From an uncultured Alteromonadaceae bacterium (GTDB taxonomy: Bacteria > Pseudomonadota > Gammaproteobacteria > Enterobacterales > Alteromonadaceae): DNA of 64,000 nucleotides. The stretch lies in assembly GCA_938085045.1 (NCBI GenBank), contig CALKGI010000035.1, positions 1-64,000 of the forward strand, read 5' to 3'. The number at the start of each line of letters is the position of its first letter. The stretch's first letter is position 1. The translations under genes and the position numbers were made by a program. A model generated the notes under the pieces. That model saw only the letters and a program-made list of their open reading frames with translations. It was not told the DNA's origin and did no database searches. Positions 2,299 through 46,187 of this stretch are shown here, piece by piece.

Positions 2299-3918
2299 TT
2301 ATTCGTATAGCTTTGAGGTATCGGCATTGCTGCGTAGGTACCAATCGGTGTAACTGAATCCGCCAGATTCGACCCATTTTGCAAAATCAGGGTATGCATG
2401 GCTGATGTCTTGGTATTCTGCTGGATGATCCCAGTTGTCGGTGATGTTGAGCACCCAAGGCATGTTGTTGCTAGTGACAAAACTATTGCTACCGTTTGAC
2501 GCATCATCGGCCATAGAGAAAAAGCCACTGTTAAACGAGCTAGTGCCCGAGAACTGTTTTAAATGCACTTCCCACTGACGCCCCGGTGCAACAGAAAAAA
2601 TATCACCATGATAATAGCTATCAACGGCAAATATGAACGGGTCGTATGGTGCCTGCCCTACTTTCCACGACGGTTCTGCAACGGTGAAGGTCACATCAAG
2701 AGTGTATTGTAAGCTCATGTTCTCACGACATGATTGCAACGTACGAAACATTTCGCAGCTGCTGAAAACGTCTTCGCTGACATCAGGTGACAAAATCAAC
2801 ACTGTGTCATTAACACCAGTTTCTATCACTTGATGAGTGACTGGTTGTCCGTTTTTAAGCACTGTCGCTGTCGCAATATTGCTTGGGTTTACGCCCGGTA
2901 TATGCAACGCAAAACCATTGTGGTAACTGGCACCTTTGGCCTGTATGTTGAAAGTACCTTCGAGTCTTTTTAACGCGTTTTGTGCAGCCAATGAACGTTT
3001 GAGTTGGTATTTCACCACCAAATCATTGAAATCATAATCACCAATTTGTGGCCACAAGTCTTCAAACATTAACGTGGCAAAACCATTTTGAGTAGGGTAG
3101 TAACTAGTGGTGAGCGGTTCTACGTTGGTGTTTTCTTCTAGCGGAATATAACTACCGTCAACGGTGCCGTCTGGGTTAACGCCGTCAATGGCGTAAAATG
3201 GGGTGATCTCAACTGAGAACAACACATCGTTGTAATCTTGGTCGCCAGAGGTAATGTATTGGTCGTCAAAACCAATCACCAGCAATTCGTTAGGCGCATC
3301 AATAAACACCACATTGTGTCGCTGGTTACCCGCAGGCTCTGGGTTTAGTTGATGGTGGCTATAAAAAGGTGTTCCCCAAGGGCCATCAGAGGAAATAGTT
3401 GAACCACTGCCGCCATAACCCCAGCCATTAGGCACAACAAAGAAACCGATACTTTGACCAGCGGTTATCTGAATTCCCAGTGCAACTGTATCACCTTGTT
3501 GCATATTACCGGCACTAGGTTTAGAAGCATTTGGGAATATTATGGTGTGGGCTGGAATATCAGCTTTGCTCAGTGGTGGATTGTTAGTGTCATAAACAAA
3601 ATAACCCAGACTATTACGGTAGCCTGCGCCTTCATTTAAGAAGGTGACAGTTGCGGTTGCAAATGTCGCCAAATCATCATCAAACCGAACATTACTGATG
3701 GTATCACTGGCGATATACGCTGGGTTTACCACAGTTGACTCAGGTAACATGCCATAGATGTTGTCGAGTAAATTGCTGGGCAATCTACTGTTGATGTTCG
3801 TCATCTGGGTAGGAACACCCAAACTGTCGTAACCAGTCACAGGATTACCAACATATTGGTAATCTGTTGCCTGTACCGAGGCGATTAAGCCAAGTCCAAG
3901 CAAGCCAAATTTTTTCAT
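2299..3918 (-). CDS. Secreted LruC-domain (DUF4842/DUF4114-like) protein
   Basis: 539 residues with a signal peptide (MKKFGLLGLGLIASVQAT). Two acidic blocks typical of this family are visible: FDDQYITSGDQDYNDVLFSVEI around residue 220 (DUF4114-like calcium-type loop) and LWPQIGDYDFNDLVVKYQLKR around residue 290 (LruC/DUF4842 signature). The remainder is beta-rich (FALHIPGVNPSN, WEVHLKQFSG). LruC proteins are exported proteins of Proteobacteria, Bacteroidetes and Leptospira with poorly known function, probably surface or matrix related. The next gene downstream is a lipoprotein 9 bp away. The start is chosen because the signal peptide begins there. Confidence 0.82.
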   Translation of the reverse strand: MKKFGLLGLGLIASVQATDYQYVGNPVTGYDSLGVPTQMTNINSRLPSNLLDNIYGMLPESTVVNPAYIASDTISNVRFDDDLATFATATVTFLNEGAGYRNSLGYFVYDTNNPPLSKADIPAHTIIFPNASKPSAGNMQQGDTVALGIQITAGQSIGFFVVPNGWGYGGSGSTISSDGPWGTPFYSHHQLNPEPAGNQRHNVVFIDAPNELLVIGFDDQYITSGDQDYNDVLFSVEITPFYAIDGVNPDGTVDGSYIPLEENTNVEPLTTSYYPTQNGFATLMFEDLWPQIGDYDFNDLVVKYQLKRSLAAQNALKRLEGTFNIQAKGASYHNGFALHIPGVNPSNIATATVLKNGQPVTHQVIETGVNDTVLILSPDVSEDVFSSCEMFRTLQSCRENMSLQYTLDVTFTVAEPSWKVGQAPYDPFIFAVDSYYHGDIFSVAPGRQWEVHLKQFSGTSSFNSGFFSMADDASNGSNSFVTSNNMPWVLNITDNWDHPAEYQDISHAYPDFAKWVESGGFSYTDWYLRSNADTSKLYE

Positions 3919-12917: not shown

Positions 12918-13094
12918 ACGTTTTGTCAGTGAGATCCGTAAGATGCATAACCAGTTACCAAGCAACAGCAACAAACTGTCAGCAAGTTAACACAAAGCAA
13001 AGTCAAAATGGACGCTGTATCAAGAGGAAAGGGAAGAAGTATATAAGGAAATTCAGATACAAAGGAAAAGGGTCATAAGGAAGATGTAATCGCT

Positions 13095-13378
13095 AAAAAG
13101 GAAGTCGTATAACGGAAGATGTATCAGCTAAAAAGGAAGTCGTATAACGGAAGATGTATCAGCTAAAAAGGAAGACGTATAACGGAAGATGTATCAGCTA
13201 AAAAGGAAGTCATATAACGGAAGATGTATCAGCTAAAAAAGGAAGTCGTATAACGGAAGATGTATCAGCTAAAAAAGGAAGACGTATAACGGAAGATGTA
13301 TCAGCTAAAAAAGGAAGACGTATAACGGAAGATGTATCAGCTAGAAAAGGAAGACGTTTAACGGAAGGTGTATCAGCT
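13095..13378 (+). repeat. Eight tandem 35/36-bp units, each with two GGA motifs
   Basis: Units start at 13095, 13130, 13165, 13200 (35 bp each) and 13235, 13271, 13307, 13343 (36 bp each, with one extra A in the A-run). Each has an A5-6 run, GGAAG(T/A)CGTATA, ACGGAAGATG and TATCAGCT. Degenerate half-units flank the array on both sides (from 13079, and 13379-13410). Length variation lies only in the A-run, as expected of slippage and unequal crossing-over. Confidence 0.9.
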
Positions 13379-13622
13379 GAAAAAGGAAGTTGTTAGTACG
13401 GATGGGTGTATTGAAGGAAGTAATATCGAGGGAACTGGGCATTAAGGAAGGCTTTTCGGCAGGATCATTGAACATCGGCAATTGCTGATGACAGTGATGG
13501 CCATAAGGAACGATGCTACCGGGTAAGGGCCGTAGCATAGAGTATTCAGGAAATGGAGTGTGTAGTTACCATCCGGGAGCAAACGTTACGTTCGCTTCCG
13601 GATGTGTATAAGGAATAGGGAA

Positions 13623-13943: not shown

Positions 13944-13995
13944 TATTAAACGTATTGTGCCTTGGGCACCAATCGCTCGCTCCCACCATTGCCGC

Positions 13996-14082
13996 CCACC
14001 TTTTTCATAGGAATAACATGTGGCAGATCCACCTTTTTCATAGGAATAACATGTGACATATCCACCTTTTTCATAGGAATAA
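13996..14082 (+). repeat. Three 21-bp motifs at exact 33-bp period before a DUF4143 ATPase gene
   Basis: The 21-bp core (CCACC, T-run, CATAGGAATAA) begins at 13996, 14029 and 14062. The 12-bp spacers are partly conserved (CATGTGGCAGAT, CATGTGACATAT). The last core ends 65 bp before the ATPase ATG. The same core at the same period lies before the second DUF4143 gene (39993-40112), so this is a shared element, probably an operator or protein-binding array. The period is close to three helical turns, which would place all motifs on one DNA face. Confidence 0.85.
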
Positions 14083-14147
14083 GTTGTAAACACAACACTG
14101 TTTTGCTAATTTTAAGCAAGTGTTCACCCAAAAATACGATGGAAAAC

Positions 14148-15458
14148 ATGCAAAGACTGTTGTTGTCACAACTACTTGAATGGCAAGCTCAGGCTACCCG
14201 CAAGCCTGTTTTGCTCGATGGCGCTAGGCAAACAGGTAAGTCATATCTACTCAAAGAACTCTTTGGTAAACGCCATTTTACTCAGTGTCATGTCGTCGAC
14301 TTTTTAAAGCAACCTGATGCCGCGCAGTTATTTGAGCAAGACCTTGACCCGCATAGGATCATTAGCGATCTGGGATTTTTTCTTAAAAAAGACATTAACC
14401 CTACAACCGATTTGGTGATTTTTGACGAAATTGGTGAATGTCATAAAGCCGTTCAATCACTCAAGTATTTTGCCGAAGACCAACCAAATTGGTTTATTTG
14501 TAGCACGGGTTCTAACATTGGCCTGCTTAATGGTTTTCCGGTTGGCAAAGTGCATGGGCTGAGGTTGCGCCCAATGAACTTTGAGGAGTTTTTATGGGCC
14601 ACCGCCAACAAACAGCAACAAGCAGCCTTTGACCGGCAAGACAGGCGCACACTGGTACACAAACAACTGTGGCCATTGCTTTGTGACTACTTTTTTGTGG
14701 GTGGCATGCCTGAGGCGGTGTTTCGTTGGGTGGCCAGTAAAGATCAACCGTTGCTAACCCGTCATCAGCAGGTGCGGCATATTCAGCGTGATATTCTAAA
14801 TGGTTATGAGCGCGACTTTGGTAAATACTCAGGCCAGGTTAACGCCTTGTATATTGATCAAGTATTTAAAAACGTCAGCACTCAACTACAAAAAAATATG
14901 GATGGTTCGGTTAAGCGATTTGCTTTTAACAATATTATTGAAAAGAAAAAAACCTACCGTGACTTTGCCAGTATCATCGGCTGGCTTGAGTCCACCCTAT
15001 TGATATCAAAGTGTTATGTCATTAACCAAAAACCTCGATTGCCGTTAAAGTCAGGCCGTAAAGACAGCTTTTTCAAACTGTTTCACCTTGATGTGGGTTT
15101 GTTGTGCTGTGATTTGGCCATTAACATGTCGGCATTGAATATGGGAGACGTCATATATAAAGGCCCCATCTGCGAAAATTTTGTTCAAAACGAATTACTC
15201 AGCTACGGCCTCAATGAAACCTATAGTTGGTCTGAAAATACCGCCGAAATCGAGTTTATTGTTGAATCAAAAGGCACCATCACCCCAGTTGAAGTCAAAT
15301 CAGGCATAAACACCAAAGCCAAAAGCCTACAGTCATATAAACAAAGATATCATCCAGATAAAACATTGAAGCTGATTGGGGCCGTAGGCGGCACAGATGA
15401 AGCAGATCAAGTTTTTCCGCTTTATTATGCCAATATCTTGAAGCGCATTATCGAATAA
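14148..15458 (+). CDS. DUF4143-family AAA ATPase (COG1373-like), copy A
   Basis: 436 residues. The P-loop is LLDGARQTGKSYLL near residues 22-35 and Walker B is LVIFDEIGECHKA. The DUF4143 C-terminal half ends with a restriction-enzyme-like core (NTAEIEFIVES, then TPVEVKSG). The family is common in bacteria and archaea; its role is unknown, with DNA-related or toxin/defence-like roles suspected. The frame is open back to 13962, but that extension only translates the upstream repeats. The ATG at 14148 aligns exactly with the start of copy B (MQRLLLSQLLEWQ versus MKRALLDTLVQWK). The start at 14139 is an alternative. Confidence 0.88.
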   Translation: MQRLLLSQLLEWQAQATRKPVLLDGARQTGKSYLLKELFGKRHFTQCHVVDFLKQPDAAQLFEQDLDPHRIISDLGFFLKKDINPTTDLVIFDEIGECHKAVQSLKYFAEDQPNWFICSTGSNIGLLNGFPVGKVHGLRLRPMNFEEFLWATANKQQQAAFDRQDRRTLVHKQLWPLLCDYFFVGGMPEAVFRWVASKDQPLLTRHQQVRHIQRDILNGYERDFGKYSGQVNALYIDQVFKNVSTQLQKNMDGSVKRFAFNNIIEKKKTYRDFASIIGWLESTLLISKCYVINQKPRLPLKSGRKDSFFKLFHLDVGLLCCDLAINMSALNMGDVIYKGPICENFVQNELLSYGLNETYSWSENTAEIEFIVESKGTITPVEVKSGINTKAKSLQSYKQRYHPDKTLKLIGAVGGTDEADQVFPLYYANILKRIIE

Positions 15459-27872: not shown

Positions 27873-30512
27873 TTAAGACCGCCCAAAATTCACAAAGAGG
27901 TGAAAGATATCGCGATTGCCATTGCGCGTTCTACCCGTTTTAACATTGTCTTTGCCGCTGTCGGCTTCGCTGCAATCTTTAAAATCAGCAAAATGCGTCT
28001 GATACTTTTGCCATAAGCCAGCAAAGTCTTTAGCTTTGACATACACCAATATAAAGTTTCGTTGATTGCCTGTGGTGTCGTATTTTGCTGCCAACTTTTT
28101 ATAATGACGGTCTATCACAGTGGTACTTAGACTTTTAAGAATAAAGCCCTCTATTATGCTTTCGGCAATACCTGTTTGGCTGTTTCTAATGACAAAATCT
28201 CTTTCACCACTGCCTTTTCCCGTTTCCGACTCACCGCCTCTGGCTTGGTCACTGACAATATATTTGCGATTCATCAAGGCCATTTTAAATCGGTCATTGG
28301 TTTGATTTTCGCTGTCGGTATTTATAGCGTGACGGTTTTCAGTCTCTAACAAAGAGATTTCAATCAGGTCTTGAGTTAGTTGCCTATAGTTAAAATGCGT
28401 ATCATCTTTGATTCGATAACCATCGAGCAGTGCTTCAATGTTAAAAGTATGGATTTTTTTCTTAGCATTCAAAATCGGTAGCGGGATATCCTTATGGCCC
28501 TCTTTTTCACACTCTATCAGGTAATCGTAATCCACATATCCAACCAGTTGATTTTCAAGCATCAACAGTACTTCTTCATCACAGGTCAGGGTTTGAGCAT
28601 TAACAATTCGGATGGTATGACGAATGATGATCAACAACTCTTTACCTGCACGAGAATCGGTATCAACAGCAATGGTGATGGTTTTCTTCACTTCATCTGC
28701 TATCACCACAGCGTTACAGTCTCGGTGTTGTAAAAATACACCTCTTTGCCAGTATTTGAGTGCGGCCTTGGTGATGTAGCTTTTCATTTTGACAATAAAT
28801 TGCGAAATGACGCTTTTTTTCAACAAATCATGATAGTGGAATCTAAAATTCAGGCCGGTCTGAAAGTCAGCCAACGCAAAATCTGGCTGAATTGGACTGA
28901 GTCTTGAGGGCAGTAAAATAGTGGTGTCATCAATCGAAAAAGACAATTCAAACTGATTCAGCAAGTCTTGCAACCAGTTATATTGACGAAGCTTATAATT
29001 AGTATCATAGCGAAAAATCGCCTGAAGCTGGCTGTAAACAAGCAGTGCGCTACTGTCTACCAACTCAGAACGGATGATTTTGTAAACCCCGTTGGTAACC
29101 CAATGCGGGTTTATAATTTGCATTGCACTGAGTCGACGATTATCTTTGTAGGTCACAACAGTGCCAATTTGATTGAGAATGGTCAGCAGAGTGTCCTGTA
29201 ACCGTTCGTTTATAATGCCATTGTCAACGCATAAAACTTCATACTCGTCACTTTCAATATAATCTTCCTCCCCTGTCGACATCGCCTCAAGTACGTCTTT
29301 TACCCTTGCCCAGCTTGGCGGCAACGGAAACTTGATATCTTCTAGTGCCCTAACATGTTGTCCAATACACTGAGTTAAATCATTAATGGTATGATGAATT
29401 TTACTTTTTATTTCAGCGTTTATCGCTTCGTCGTTTTCAGCGCTCAGATACAGTACATCAACAATATTAAACTCATCTTTGTAGCGGTTTAAGTCAAAAA
29501 TATAACTGGTATTCAAATCTCTTTTATTGACCACCACTATGATGGGCGAGCTGTCGCTATTGGCTTTTATTACGCTGAGCCAATGGAAAATACCCGAATC
29601 ATTATCTTCTTTTTGTGAATCAAGCACATACACATATAAACTTCTGGTACTAAGAAAAAACTGATGGGTTTGCTGGGCTATCTCTTGGCCTGCAAAATCC
29701 CAAATATTGACTTGAATGTCATTGGCAAGCGCGCGTTTTTGAATATCTATACCCAATGTGGTTTTTTGATTGGGGTTATGCCGATGACCTAAAACGCGAT
29801 TAATCAAAGAGGTTTTACCGACACGCTCATCACCAACTACCAGAACTTTGGCTTCATTGAGTGGTTTGGTCTTTTCACCTTGAACTTCCAACAGGTAAGT
29901 GACCAATTCCTGTGTGCTCAAATTGTCTTCTATGCCTTTTAGGTGCTTTGTGATCGGATTATTGAATAAATCAAGAGTGTCTGTATCTTTCAATTGAATG
30001 ATCGATTCAGGTAGGCGGGTCAAACTATTTTCACTTAGTCCTAAATAATCTAAGTTTTGCAGCTTACCAATCGTTTCTGGCAGGCACGTTAAATTATTTT
30101 CACTTAACCCTAGATAATTTAAGTTTCGCAGCTTGCCAATTGTCTCAGGCAGGCACCTCAGATTATTAGACTCCAAATCGAGTGCTGTCAGGCTCTGTAG
30201 CTTAACAATCGATTTCGGCAGACTGACCAGATTATTATCTTCCAGATTGATCACCGTCAAGTTGTGAAGTTGACCAATAGATTCGGGTAATTCAGATAGG
30301 TTATTTGATTGTAAATTCAGTTCTGTCAAAGTTGAAATGTTGCAGATAGTGTCAATATCAATATCACTACAATAGTTAATTGCAAGATGAGTCAGTTGAT
30401 TCTCATCATCTAAGAAATATGCATTTTCGCTTTCAGTGTCAAAGATATCGACTTCTTCCAAACCTTTCAAAATTGCTTGCAAAGAAAACTGCTTATTATC
30501 AATCAAAGTCAC
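27873..30512 (-). CDS. Roco protein: LRR - Ras-like GTPase - COR, with C-terminal extension
   Basis: 879 residues. Residues 60-190 are five to six 23-residue LRRs (LTELNLQSNNLSELPESIGQ type). The Roc GTPase follows with P-loop GDERVGKTS (227-235), switch II WDFAGQE and G4 VVNKRDL. The COR region (PHWVTNGVYKIIRSE, then EVLLMLENQLVGYVDYDYLIECE) comes next. The last ~118 residues contain GERDFVIRNSQTGIAESIIEGF, reminiscent of a nuclease-like or signalling core seen at the end of some bacterial NTPases. Bacterial Roco proteins are cytoplasmic dimeric GTPases of mostly unknown function. It is divergent from the ECF sigma operon and is soluble. Confidence 0.85.
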   Translation of the reverse strand: MTLIDNKQFSLQAILKGLEEVDIFDTESENAYFLDDENQLTHLAINYCSDIDIDTICNISTLTELNLQSNNLSELPESIGQLHNLTVINLEDNNLVSLPKSIVKLQSLTALDLESNNLRCLPETIGKLRNLNYLGLSENNLTCLPETIGKLQNLDYLGLSENSLTRLPESIIQLKDTDTLDLFNNPITKHLKGIEDNLSTQELVTYLLEVQGEKTKPLNEAKVLVVGDERVGKTSLINRVLGHRHNPNQKTTLGIDIQKRALANDIQVNIWDFAGQEIAQQTHQFFLSTRSLYVYVLDSQKEDNDSGIFHWLSVIKANSDSSPIIVVVNKRDLNTSYIFDLNRYKDEFNIVDVLYLSAENDEAINAEIKSKIHHTINDLTQCIGQHVRALEDIKFPLPPSWARVKDVLEAMSTGEEDYIESDEYEVLCVDNGIINERLQDTLLTILNQIGTVVTYKDNRRLSAMQIINPHWVTNGVYKIIRSELVDSSALLVYSQLQAIFRYDTNYKLRQYNWLQDLLNQFELSFSIDDTTILLPSRLSPIQPDFALADFQTGLNFRFHYHDLLKKSVISQFIVKMKSYITKAALKYWQRGVFLQHRDCNAVVIADEVKKTITIAVDTDSRAGKELLIIIRHTIRIVNAQTLTCDEEVLLMLENQLVGYVDYDYLIECEKEGHKDIPLPILNAKKKIHTFNIEALLDGYRIKDDTHFNYRQLTQDLIEISLLETENRHAINTDSENQTNDRFKMALMNRKYIVSDQARGGESETGKGSGERDFVIRNSQTGIAESIIEGFILKSLSTTVIDRHYKKLAAKYDTTGNQRNFILVYVKAKDFAGLWQKYQTHFADFKDCSEADSGKDNVKTGRTRNGNRDIFHLFVNFGRS

Positions 30513-38576: not shown

Positions 38577-39926
38577 CTAAAAATATTCGTTTATATCCCA
38601 TGCCGTCAACAACGATTCGGCCGCATGGCAGGTGTAATAAAGCGCTCTGGTGTGCACTTGGTTTTCTCTTGAACCCCCAATTAAATCACACAATTTATAG
38701 GCCACTTTCGGCGCATAATTTTCGATATATAAATTCAGGCTTTTGGCTTTGGTGTGTTTTCCACTTTTTATTTCTATTGGAATGATATCGCCCAATGCAT
38801 TGGCGATCAAAAACTCCAACTCAGCCGTATTACCGCTTTGCCAAGCATACGTAGACGACACGCCCGCAGCCAAAAATTCGTTTTGAGCAAAATTCTCAGC
38901 CATATATCCTTTATAAGCGACCGACTGCCCAATAATTTGCGGATAAGCAAAACCCATCAGCGCATGTAATATACCCACATCAAGAATAAACAATTTAAAT
39001 CGGCTATCCTGCTCATTGGCGCCGAGCGGTGTTATCGGTTTTCCATCTATTATTTTCGCTTTACTGACCAGATGAGTGCTAACCAAATAATCTATCAAGG
39101 TTTGAAAATCTCGATAGCGGTTTTTGCCCTGAATAATTTGATTGAACTTAAACCGTTTTACGCTGGTATCTACCGACTGGCTCAATTGTTTGGGAATATT
39201 TCTGAAAACCGCTTCGAGTTGCGCTGCAAGAAATTTATTTTTGGCATCATATTTACCAAAGTCGCGGATATAACCGGTGATCAAATCATTTTGAATTTTT
39301 CTGACTTGCCGGGTTTTTTGGATGATGGGCGCAGGGCTTGTGAACCACTTTTTAACCACCGCAGGCATACCACCAACAAATAGATATTGGCGATACAGCT
39401 CTGTGAGTTTTTCGTGCACCACATCATTTCTGACTTGTTGTTCAAACGCTTTTGCCAACGGCCTATTGCCCGAGGCAAGCACGAATTCAAAAAATGACAT
39501 TGGGTGTAACGTCAGCTCATATGCCTGTCCTACCGGATAACGCTCAATCAAGCCAATATTCGAACCCGATGCGCACAAGTAAACATCAGGCCTTTGTTCT
39601 TTAAAGTATTTGAGGCTGTTTAGCGCCTCTGGGCATAAACCAATTTCATCGAAAAATAACAAATCAGTTGCTGGGTTAAAGTCTTTTGCGGCAAATACTG
39701 CAATACGCTCAAGTATTTCATCGGCTCTTATCGAATCTTTAAACAAATTCGCAGCGGCTATGGTGTCTTCAAAATTGATTTTAAACACTTTATCAAAATG
39801 ATTGGCACCAAACAGATGCTCAATTAAATAAGACTTACCCACCTGACGCGCACCATCAAGCATGATGGGTTGCCTGTCAGGCGAGGCTTTCCATTGAACT
39901 AAAGTGTCAAGTAGAGCTCGCTTCAT
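38577..39926 (-). CDS. DUF4143-family AAA ATPase, copy B
   Basis: 449 residues. P-loop MLDGARQVGKSYLI, Walker B DLLFFDEIGLCPEA and the DUF4143 C-terminus with NTAELEFLIAN followed by IPIEIKSG. It is clearly paralogous to copy A at 14148-15458 along its full length. The ATG has no strong binding site. Upstream (39993-40112) is a four-motif array of the same type as before copy A, ending 66 bp from the start codon. It probably acts in the cytoplasm on DNA or protein; the partner is unknown. Confidence 0.88.
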   Translation of the reverse strand: MKRALLDTLVQWKASPDRQPIMLDGARQVGKSYLIEHLFGANHFDKVFKINFEDTIAAANLFKDSIRADEILERIAVFAAKDFNPATDLLFFDEIGLCPEALNSLKYFKEQRPDVYLCASGSNIGLIERYPVGQAYELTLHPMSFFEFVLASGNRPLAKAFEQQVRNDVVHEKLTELYRQYLFVGGMPAVVKKWFTSPAPIIQKTRQVRKIQNDLITGYIRDFGKYDAKNKFLAAQLEAVFRNIPKQLSQSVDTSVKRFKFNQIIQGKNRYRDFQTLIDYLVSTHLVSKAKIIDGKPITPLGANEQDSRFKLFILDVGILHALMGFAYPQIIGQSVAYKGYMAENFAQNEFLAAGVSSTYAWQSGNTAELEFLIANALGDIIPIEIKSGKHTKAKSLNLYIENYAPKVAYKLCDLIGGSRENQVHTRALYYTCHAAESLLTAWDINEYF

Positions 39927-39992
39927 CGGTTTTATCCATAACTCACAAAGTAAATAAAATTGCAGTCAATAATCCCAACTATAAAACACAAA

Positions 39993-40112
39993 CCCACTTT
40001 TGGATAGGAATAATTCTTACAAAAACCCACTTTTGGATAGGAATAACCCTTGAAAAACCCCACTTTTTGACAGGAATAATTCTTACAAAAACCCACTTTT
40101 TGATAGGAATAA
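39993..40112 (+). repeat. Four 21-bp motifs at exact 33-bp period before the second DUF4143 gene
   Basis: The cores begin at 39993, 40026, 40059 and 40092 and read CCCACTTTT, G/T, GATAGGAATAA (third copy GACAGG). Three 12-bp spacers separate them; two are identical (TTCTTACAAAAA) and one is CCCTTGAAAAAC. Core and period match the array at 13996-14082. Relative to its gene the array is inverted: the ATPase reads leftward while the motif is oriented rightward. Confidence 0.88.
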
Positions 40113-43919: not shown

Positions 43920-46187
43920 ATGAATAAAAAAGTACCTCAACTTGTCATTGCCTCGATGCTCACACTTGGCGCATCAGCCAGTGCAGTTGCCGCAGATACC
44001 ACAAACACTACATCACCACAAACCTCTGTTGTTAACACAGCACCAGTGGGCGATGCTGGTCGCGATGATACGGTCGCCGCCAATACATATTACGCTCTTA
44101 ATGGCAGTAACAGCCACGATGCTGAGGGCGCTGAATTGACTTATCTTTGGATGCAAACTGGTGGACCTGCTGTAGATATTTTTGCACCGCAGTCGCCAAA
44201 CCCCGGTTTTGTTTCACCAAATGTCACCAGCGACCAAACTTTAACTTTCTCTTTAGACGTTTTTGACGGCAAATTGCGCGGCGAAACGGTTTTCGTCAAT
44301 ATTCTAGTTAAAGCTGACAATCAAGCACCAGTTGCTGATGCAGGACGTGATGATACAGTTGCCTCAAACACCTATTACCCACTTAATGGCAGCAACAGTC
44401 ACGACCCTGAAGGCGATGAATTAACTTACCACTGGATTCAAACAGCAGGTCCTTCGGTTGATATTTTTGCACCACAGTCGCCAAACCCAGGTTTTGTTTC
44501 TCCAAACGTCACCAGCAACGAAACATTGACTTTTGCTCTGAATGTATTTGATGGTGAGTTATACAGCGAAACGGTATTCGTTAATATTTTAGTTACCGGG
44601 CTCAATCAAGCACCTATTGCAGATGCTGGCCGCGACGACACAGTAGCACCTAACACTTATTACCCGCTCAATGGCAGCAACAGTCACGACCCTGAAGGTG
44701 AAGGTTTAACCTACCACTGGATACAAACGGCAGGTCCTTCGGTTGATATTTTTGCACCACAATCACCAAACCCGGGTTTTGTTTCACCTAACGTTACCAC
44801 CAACCAAACTTTAACATTCGCCTTGAATGTGTTTGATGGTGAACTTTACAGCGAAACCGTATTCGTCAACATCTTGGTAAAAGTCGCAAACCTAGCGCCT
44901 GTTGCCGATGCCGGTCGTGATGACACTGTCGACGAAAATGCCTATTACGCATTAAATGGCAGCAACAGTTTCGACCCTGAAGGCGCAGAACTGACTTACC
45001 ACTGGATACAAGTTGCCGGCCCTGCGGTTGATATTTTTGCACCTGAATCACCAAACCCAGGGTTTGTTGCACCTAGTGTTGATTCTACTCAAACACTGAC
45101 TTTCGCTTTGAATGTTTTTGATGGCGAACTGCGCAGCGACACTGCAATGGTCAACATTGTGATCAACAAAAACAATGAAGCACCAATCGCCGATGCGGGT
45201 GACAATAGCAACATGAAACAAGGTGGTTCAGCCACTTTAAATGGCACAGCAAGTTATGACCCAGAAGGTCTTGATATCGCCAGCTACCAGTGGACACAAG
45301 TTAGTGGGCCTTTGGCTTTGTTGATGAACACCACCAGTGCAAACCCAACCTACGTTGCACCAGTTGGCGTAAGCGGCACCATGGTATTTCAGTTGCAAGT
45401 CAGTGACGGTGTTAAAACCAGCGCGCTTTCAGCCTTGCCAGACAGCAATGTTGCTGGTGACGATTTAGTGAGTGTGACCATCACCCAAAACAATGCCCCA
45501 ATTGCTGATGCAGGACAAGATCAAAGCAAAAATGAAGGCAGTGTAGTAGTGATGGATGCTCGCGCAAGCTTCGACCCAGACCGTGACCCAATCAGCTATC
45601 AATGGGCGCAGGTTTCAGGCACGCCAGTAACATTCAACACCAACTCAATTGCCACGCCAAGCTTCACAGCACCAGCAACAACTGGTGGCGAAGCATTGGT
45701 ATTTTCAGTAACAATTACTGACAACGATTCGGTTAATCCAAAATCAACAACTGACACTGTTGTGGTTAACGTATTAGACGTTAACGCACCACCAAGCTGT
45801 GATTTGGCAACCGCATCACCAGATGCTTTATGGCCACCAAACCACAAATTGAAGCCAGTCGAAATTTATGGCGTAACCGATAATGATGCAACGTACAACA
45901 ACGTGACAATTCGTATCAACAGCGTTACTCAAGACGAAGCAATTAATGGCAAAGGCGATGGTAATACCTCTCCAGATGCGATTATTCTGCCTGGTACTAC
46001 ACTCGACAGCGCAATGATCCGCGCCGAACGTGCTCGCAAAGGTGATGGCCGTGTTTACACCATCAACTTCACTGCTGATGACGGCTTCGAGAACTGTACT
46101 GGTTCAGTCACTGTTGGCGTACCAGCCAAGCGCAAGTCTACTGCGGTTGACAGTGGTTTGACTGTTGATTCTACAACTGAAGAGTAA
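43920..46187 (+). CDS. Secreted PKD/Ig-like repeat protein
   Basis: 755 residues with a signal peptide (VIASMLTLGASASAVAADT). Four consecutive 95-residue repeats (each starting APxADAGRDDTV and containing LNGSNS, DIFAPxSPNPGFV and LxVFDGxL) are very alike, followed by two diverged PKD-like domains (ADAGDNSNMKQGGSATLNG; ADAGQDQSKNEGSVVVMDA). The C-terminal domain has the WPPNHKLKPVEI motif found at the end of several surface proteins. Likely adhesive or structural outside the cell. AAAGGAAGACACC serves as binding site; a strong terminator follows. Confidence 0.87.
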   Translation: MNKKVPQLVIASMLTLGASASAVAADTTNTTSPQTSVVNTAPVGDAGRDDTVAANTYYALNGSNSHDAEGAELTYLWMQTGGPAVDIFAPQSPNPGFVSPNVTSDQTLTFSLDVFDGKLRGETVFVNILVKADNQAPVADAGRDDTVASNTYYPLNGSNSHDPEGDELTYHWIQTAGPSVDIFAPQSPNPGFVSPNVTSNETLTFALNVFDGELYSETVFVNILVTGLNQAPIADAGRDDTVAPNTYYPLNGSNSHDPEGEGLTYHWIQTAGPSVDIFAPQSPNPGFVSPNVTTNQTLTFALNVFDGELYSETVFVNILVKVANLAPVADAGRDDTVDENAYYALNGSNSFDPEGAELTYHWIQVAGPAVDIFAPESPNPGFVAPSVDSTQTLTFALNVFDGELRSDTAMVNIVINKNNEAPIADAGDNSNMKQGGSATLNGTASYDPEGLDIASYQWTQVSGPLALLMNTTSANPTYVAPVGVSGTMVFQLQVSDGVKTSALSALPDSNVAGDDLVSVTITQNNAPIADAGQDQSKNEGSVVVMDARASFDPDRDPISYQWAQVSGTPVTFNTNSIATPSFTAPATTGGEALVFSVTITDNDSVNPKSTTDTVVVNVLDVNAPPSCDLATASPDALWPPNHKLKPVEIYGVTDNDATYNNVTIRINSVTQDEAINGKGDGNTSPDAIILPGTTLDSAMIRAERARKGDGRVYTINFTADDGFENCTGSVTVGVPAKRKSTAVDSGLTVDSTTEE

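Follow-up and report, generated by a model that had tools for sequence, protein, structure and literature searches.

Iteron-type origins carry short phased repeats beside the gene of a presumed binder, and the locus described here has the same arrangement. In restriction-modification systems, C proteins and their C-boxes let a mobile defence-type gene regulate itself through its own sites, and so establish safely in a new host. The genes described here match the models of PDC-S01, which the accessible part of its description presents as an ATPase fused to a PD-(D/E)XK-family domain (PMC12988326). PDC-S01 is a suspected phage-defence candidate whose antiphage role is putative; that same part of the text deals with the protein only and mentions no cognate upstream array. 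For an AAA_14/DUF4143 gene of Thermus thermophilus, TT_P0211, the accessible text reports 6.6-fold higher expression with plasmid DNA, and only in an Argonaute-bearing strain (PMC4406477). In MalT, according to the portion available, multimerisation allows cooperative binding to the MalT boxes (PMC4381067). A search of open-access PMC papers found no report of upstream arrays in this gene family.

The DNA analysed here, referred to as the window, is a stretch of 64,000 nucleotides from an uncultured Alteromonadaceae bacterium that carries the two DUF4143 genes A and B, each preceded by an array of repeats (Table 1). Their proteins are 44% identical. Both match PDC-S01 models over nearly the full length, with both Pfam domains above cut-off, and thus belong to the family. 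The ORF tool starts gene A at a TTG at position 13962, upstream of the ATG codons listed in the table.

Table 1. Features of the window and of related loci. Positions without a locus prefix are those of the window.
Feature	Position	Strand	Description
Array A	13996..14082	+	Three cores, 13996-14016, 14029-14049 and 14062-14082; period 33
Gene A	14148..15458	+	AAA_14 and DUF4143 (Pfam); PADLOC PDC-S01, E 1.9e-117; alternative ATG at 14139
Gene B	38577..39926	-	449 aa; AAA_14 ATPase and DUF4143 (Pfam); PADLOC PDC-S01, E 7.6e-111
Candidate -10 of gene B	39978..39983	-	TATAGT in the sequence; putative promoter element
Array B	39990..40112	+	Four copies of a 33-bp unit, from sequence, tandem-repeat and pattern scans; cores of about 21 bp at 39993-40013, 40026-40046, 40059-40079 and 40092-40112
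36-bp tandem repeat	13075-13390		8.9 copies with 94% matches, some 600 bp ahead of array A; no relation to the 33-bp array seen
69-bp tandem repeat	30001-30167		2.4 copies, within ORF 27873-30512
285-bp tandem repeat	44039-45200		About 4 copies, within ORF 43920-46187
Phage polymerase array	L255:2449-2503		Two palindromes, period 33
Phage polymerase array	L256:2905-2960		Two palindromes, period 33
Viral array	L423:1779-1852		Three AAAAATGTG sites; no DUF4143 gene in contig record
Viral array	L424:9772-9845		Three AAAAATGTG sites; no DUF4143 gene in contig record
Viral array	L425:932-1005		Three AAAAATGTG sites; no DUF4143 gene in contig record
Viral array	L427:9418-9492		Three AAAAATGTG sites; no DUF4143 gene in contig record
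Viral array	L429:6205-6278		Three AAAAATGTG sites; no DUF4143 gene in contig record
E. coli gene and array	L486:6001-7425		Found in 4 of 5426 complete genomes

An AlphaFold model of protein B (mean pLDDT 91.2) superposes, over residues 1 to about 325, on the archaeal AAA+ ATPases 2qen (Z 16.5, rmsd 4.4, 268 residues aligned) and 2fna (Z 15.8, rmsd 4.5, 270 aligned), as well as on CED-4 (4m9s; Z 14.1, rmsd 5.6, 283 aligned) and the plant NLR RPP1 (7dfv; Z 14.0, rmsd 4.7, 256 aligned). Foldseek matches of the model also include ORC/Cdc6, MalT (8bob, rank 10) and Avs3/Avs4 chains, and a sequence search of the PDB with B gave no match at E up to 1. As modelled, the N-terminal part is an AAA+ core followed by a winged-helix region, which places B among the STAND/AAA+ proteins. 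The C-terminal domain, modelled alone (pLDDT 83.7), resembles Can2 (Z 9.1, rmsd 3.6, 115 aligned), VRR_NUC (Z 7.6, rmsd 3.2, 89 aligned), McrC (Z 7.1, rmsd 3.9, 114 aligned), EndoMS (Z 7.0) and EcoRII (Z 6.6). The residues of the E ... (D/E) ... ExK motif are conserved: all of 67 sequences have E344, E385 and K387, and nearly all have E369. Z scores around 8 would by themselves be modest, and with motif and fold in agreement we assign the predicted domain to the PD-(D/E)XK nuclease fold, in line with the accessible description of PDC-S01 (PMC12988326).

These features bring B close to several known regulators and set it apart from each. Like MalT, B has an AAA+/STAND-like ATPase; unlike MalT, its model has no SUPR sensor domain, the C-terminal superhelical inducer-sensing domain being replaced beyond about residue 325 by the PD-(D/E)XK-like domain, and its putative sites lie almost only at its own gene. 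The combination of AAA+ and winged helix is shared with ORC/Cdc6-type initiators. Pfam finds only AAA_14 and DUF4143 in A and B, and the missing replication protein, together with a chromosomal single-gene unit and a link to a promoter, distinguishes the locus from iteron/initiator systems such as plasmid origins. It differs from C proteins in that regulator and putative effector would here be one protein, with phased multi-site arrays.

The cores of array B start 33, 33 and 33 bp apart, and TRF recovers the array at 39986-40112 with period 33 and 3.8 copies. Arrays A and B share one motif, with 15 of 16 consensus positions in common, in opposite orientation relative to their own genes: in gene-ward reading it is CCACCTTTTTCATAGGAATAA in A and TTATTCCTATCAAAAAGTGGG in B. 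Sixty-six bases separate the first core of array B from the ATG of its gene, and 65 bases separate the last core of array A from the ATG at 14148 (56 with the ATG at 14139). The first-pass annotation had described the four cores, their period, both distances and the flipped orientation, all of which our coordinates confirm, the 65 bp of copy A being right with the ATG at 14148. Its judgement that coincidence was very unlikely is borne out by a degenerate pattern which, at up to 3 mismatches, has 7 matches in the window against 0.04 expected (mean of 100 shuffles), with none of the 100 shuffles reaching 7. These shuffles, and the controls of the surveys below, rule out chance or low complexity as the source of the array. 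A scan of the whole 5.9-Mb genome with an 18-mer, tolerating 2 mismatches, found nothing within 1 mismatch other than the 7 cores of A and B; 11 further matches all had 2 mismatches, against 7 matches in the reversed-pattern control. Other tandem repeats of the window are listed in Table 1.

The host genome has eight DUF4143 genes, seven of which have a tandem array directly upstream, with periods of 32 or 33 in five genes; the other two, which belong to another subfamily, have periods of 22 and 23. No upstream array was seen at the eighth. In a comparison of the seven arrays over 16-base windows, 15 bases agree between A and B; the remaining pairs score 9-13, and shuffled sequences average 10.1 with a maximum of 13, so that only A and B have consensuses more alike than shuffles. 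In a same-genus genome (G197), the orthologue of B, with a protein 93% identical, is preceded by four copies at the same period. Across three aligned units, 62 of 69 core bases are identical between the two orthologues, as are 12 of 30 linker bases, and the stretch past the last core, including the TATAGT hexamer, is unchanged.

The first-pass annotation had suggested comparing the upstream regions of other DUF4143 homologues, and this was done in two surveys, in which many of the genomes are MAGs. An array was accepted when 0 of 100 shuffles reached its score and z was at least 4, with ungapped periods of 14-60. A broad sample of DUF4143 genes of the order and the phylum, biased to the strongest DUF4143 matches, comprised 134 scored genes, of which 126 were kept (Walker motif, 350-520 aa; one region yielded no gene). 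Arrays were found in 52 of 121 upstream regions of this sample, as opposed to 2 of 122 downstream regions and the interior of 1 of 126 genes, and their periods cluster at 22-23 and 32-33. The second survey covered the subfamily of gene B through the best 80 of at least 552 confirmed candidates, a set that leans to close relatives of the query. One of these loci yielded no gene, the upstream sequence was too short at 5, and a few truncated genes were kept in the count. The loci span many phyla, coming from Shewanella, Halomonas, Idiomarina, Chlamydiae, Bacteroidales, Lachnospiraceae, Verrucomicrobia, an actinomycete and others. In these best 80 of at least 552, 46 of 74 upstream regions pass the test, 45 of them with a period of 32 or 33 and one with 47. 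Controls passed in 7 of 75 downstream regions, 1 of 79 coding sequences and 13 of 198 regions preceding a neighbouring ORF, where periods were scattered (32 or 33 in 3 of the 13). Judged from sequence, the array is thus a trait of the DUF4143 family.

The half-site AAAAATGTG, at up to 1 mismatch, occurs upstream of 53 of 70 genes in the same best 80 of at least 552 candidates, against 17.5 expected, and 62 of 69 of its same-strand spacings are phased: 32 bp (19), 33 bp (24), 64-66 bp (16) and 96 bp (3), with 7 others. In these 70 genes the half-site points gene-ward in 33, away in 12 and both ways in 8, and is absent from 17, so that the flip between A and B is a property of the family. Copy number ranges from 1 to 5 across 78 arrays, the variation that the first-pass annotation had named as support. 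Its conserved distance to the start codon has a narrower reach: 65 and 66 bp are common to A and B, but the distance is no constant of the family, since over 78 arrays the gap between tandem segment and start codon runs from 5 bp (10th percentile) to 63 bp (90th percentile). Alteromonad-type genes fall mostly into two groups by array-to-start distance.

Other arrangements were seen along the way. Seven loci of a further subfamily have 23-bp-period arrays of TTTACAATTGGACGAC-like sites, corresponding to about two helical turns. Ten loci of another DUF4143 subfamily have no array but one inverted repeat, of the CCTTGCAA...TTGCAAGG type, that abuts the start codon; among DUF4143 genes without an array, 20 of 94 carry an inverted repeat that is significant and no more than 80 bp from the ATG. 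An array of Schwartzia (Firmicutes), upstream of position 4001 in L220, contains ATTCCTATGAAAAATG, close to the motif of A and B despite the different phylum.

Array and gene are tightly paired. A scan of 15 genomes with alteromonad-type homologues for the palindrome CACTTTTATGCGCATAAAAGTG, allowing 3 mismatches, gave 27 sites spread over 14 genomes, and 25 of these sites belong to the gene's own array. One genome has a DUF4143 gene and no palindromic site, and another has a single extra palindrome between unrelated genes. Exact AAAATGTG pairs at the right spacing gave 30 matches in 32 genomes with B-type genes (reversed control, 4), of which 26 lie just upstream of a DUF4143 gene; of the remaining four, one is at a contig end, and the same sequence precedes the gene elsewhere. 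By sequence, then, repeated sites stand at the gene's own likely promoter and almost nowhere else, as in an operator array. Motif similarity follows protein similarity over the 78 arrays (Mantel r 0.68; 0 of 500 permutations), a correlation that may reflect common descent only, given that the array lies next to the gene and is inherited with it. No protein domain emerges as the one that sets the motif (sliding-window partial r at most 0.08). A second conserved gene was considered as the binder and rejected: each neighbour family is limited to 5 or fewer of the 80 loci (best 80 of at least 552 candidates), which makes the gene's own product the simplest binder.

The position of the arrays relative to promoters is also regular. 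In gene B, the TATAGT hexamer lies 11 nt past the AAAAGTG of the gene-proximal core, an offset at which this core would cover the -35 region. A recognisable palindrome precedes 29 of 31 alteromonad-type genes, and in 11 of these 29 a TATAAT-like hexamer lies exactly 10 nt past the last palindrome, against about 0.5 expected per position; this offset would put the last site across the -35 region and the array in the place of an operator. In other members, inspected by eye, the last site lies between TTGCAT-like and TGTAAT-like hexamers. The array thus likely abuts or overlaps the promoter. The first-pass annotation had seen a binding platform more than a promoter or leader peptide. Protein-binding DNA indeed fits better than RNA or a peptide, given the flips and a period of about three turns, but platform versus promoter is a false choice, since the array adjoins or overlaps the likely promoter.

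The array is inherited with its gene and is also transferred with it. DNA conserved between relatives often stops at the outer edge of the array. Near-identical copies follow at least five unrelated left-hand sequences, in Shewanella/Acinetobacter, Marinomonas, Aliiglaciecola, Pectobacterium and E. coli, and what they share begins with the first array base, give or take a few. The four E. coli genomes with the gene and array are those of strains E14, E15, E16 and E32 from chickens, and the unit lies there in a defence island with type I restriction hsdR, a MAD1/MADS-annotated gene and HipA. Exact units are gained or lost: on Vibrio coralliilyticus-type plasmids, L257 has three sites and L258 and L259 have one (upstream of position 3001), a difference of exactly two 32-bp units, or 64 nt, between near-identical plasmids.

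Similar arrays occur in viral contigs. The exact palindrome, with one base of its last half degenerate, is found in three IMG/VR contigs of T4-like phages of two lineages (L254 and L256 of one kind, L255 of another), as two copies at period 33 before a gene-43-type DNA polymerase. When 153 of 159 polymerase loci of relatives, those with enough upstream sequence, were examined, the motif was present in only 2, exactly in one and with 1 mismatch in the other, against 7 or more mismatches everywhere else; these were also the only two that passed the tandem test. L344, with a 98% identical polymerase, is short of exactly one 33-nt unit. Neither kind of phage has a DUF4143 gene in its contig sequence, the contigs being fragments, and no convincing relatives of the two polymerase arrays were found in INPHARED. 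Three exact AAAAATGTG sites at 32-33 bp occur in 8 viral contigs, in two of them directly upstream of a DUF4143 gene and in five with no such gene in the contig record (Table 1). The L423 array lies directly before a terminase small subunit gene, and the arrays of L424 and L429 are near-identical and precede different small genes. We did not count the eighth contig, L428, where the sites lie inside a coding Lys-Asn-Val repeat, or L263, a terminator-like hairpin between convergent genes that we take as chance. Searches of viral contigs for exact B-type arrays (two spaced cores) and for paired exact palindromes found none. The presence of arrays on gene-less phage contigs implies that the sites are not only autoregulatory; these arrays may be decoys, captured operators or remnants.

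We propose, with moderate confidence, that the array is a cognate operator array, which the gene's own product would bind in a phased, cooperative fashion and through which it would control its own gene. The product, or its AAA+/winged-helix part, would bind two to five sites on one face of the helix, the period of 32-33 bp corresponding to about three turns and that of 22-23 bp in the sister subfamily to about two, and the bound molecules would oligomerise side by side. The gene-proximal site, on or against the core promoter, would hold expression down, and loss of protein from the array, for example by titration or activation on invading DNA, would let it rise. Repression is the direction we infer, and activation may apply instead, as a site centre near -33 would suit an activator such as a MalT-type factor just as well, and the poor -35 hexamer of gene B would favour activation. 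A point against the operator reading is that the array is not universal in the family: the strict test is failed by 69 of 121 genes of the broad sample and by 28 of 74 close relatives (best 80 of at least 552).

The main rival shares the binding step and would have the array serve mainly to park or nucleate the ATPase-nuclease, with transcription as a side effect. Two to five helically phased sites where one operator would do, a STAND/NLR-like fold that forms oligomers in relatives, and the indifference to orientation all agree with such an assembly platform, which we nevertheless consider unlikely because the sites occupy the promoter, in many genes at a fixed offset, which is what an operator would do, and oligomerisation on DNA is putative. 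A separate regulator or host factor that binds the array and controls the gene would account for the phage contigs that have arrays without the gene, and many bacterial operators are palindromes like the alteromonad ones; it would have to do so without a conserved neighbouring gene, with several regulators for the paralogues of one genome, which differ in motif, with hardly any sites elsewhere in the host genome, and with a pairing that spans phyla and moves between genera, and we regard it as improbable.

More doubtful still is a reading in which array and gene form a small mobile cassette and the array is its end or recombination site. The recurrent left edge and the variation of arrays by exact units would suit a cassette, but the right boundary of the shared DNA varies between about 1360 and 1640 from the ATG, neither terminal inverted repeats nor target duplications were seen by eye, and the unit has no transposase. 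No empty site was found either: the hydrolase next to gene B has a close orthologue only in G197, which itself has the gene, and in E. coli both flanks occur only in the four genomes carrying it. Selection for an intact operator and gene, or exchange within the repeats, would yield the same left edge. A role for the repeats at the RNA level, in a CRISPR-like array or in a leader peptide is scarcely credible. A period of 33 is divisible by 3, and two small ORFs of 54 and 57 aa run across array B; yet a period of 32 is as common as 33 and excludes a coding repeat, and both orientations occur, which likewise rules out a leader peptide. Neither strand of A or B folds better than shuffles (z -1.1 to 0.7), Rfam gives no match at E up to 1, and the linkers of array B repeat within it, where a CRISPR array would have identical repeats and unique spacers.

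Beyond the cognate operator array, a broader and more tentative picture, rather unlikely as a whole, is that the arrays form an address system in which each ATPase-nuclease would know its own array. Phages would exploit or fight it through gene-less copies, as titrating decoys or as captured operators that time phage genes by the state of the host defence.

PDC-S01 is described as the fourth most common defence across all prokaryotes, and the accessible part of the paper gives no mechanism (PMC12988326). The cognate array, attached to many of its genes, offers a first handle on which DNA the protein may bind, how it may be silenced, why it can be transferred harmlessly between genera and what phages may do about it; the link to defence is itself putative. 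Each gene brings its own probe for binding, footprinting and reporter tests, and should the gene-less phage arrays prove to be decoys or captured operators, they would directly attest to a conflict over PDC-S01.
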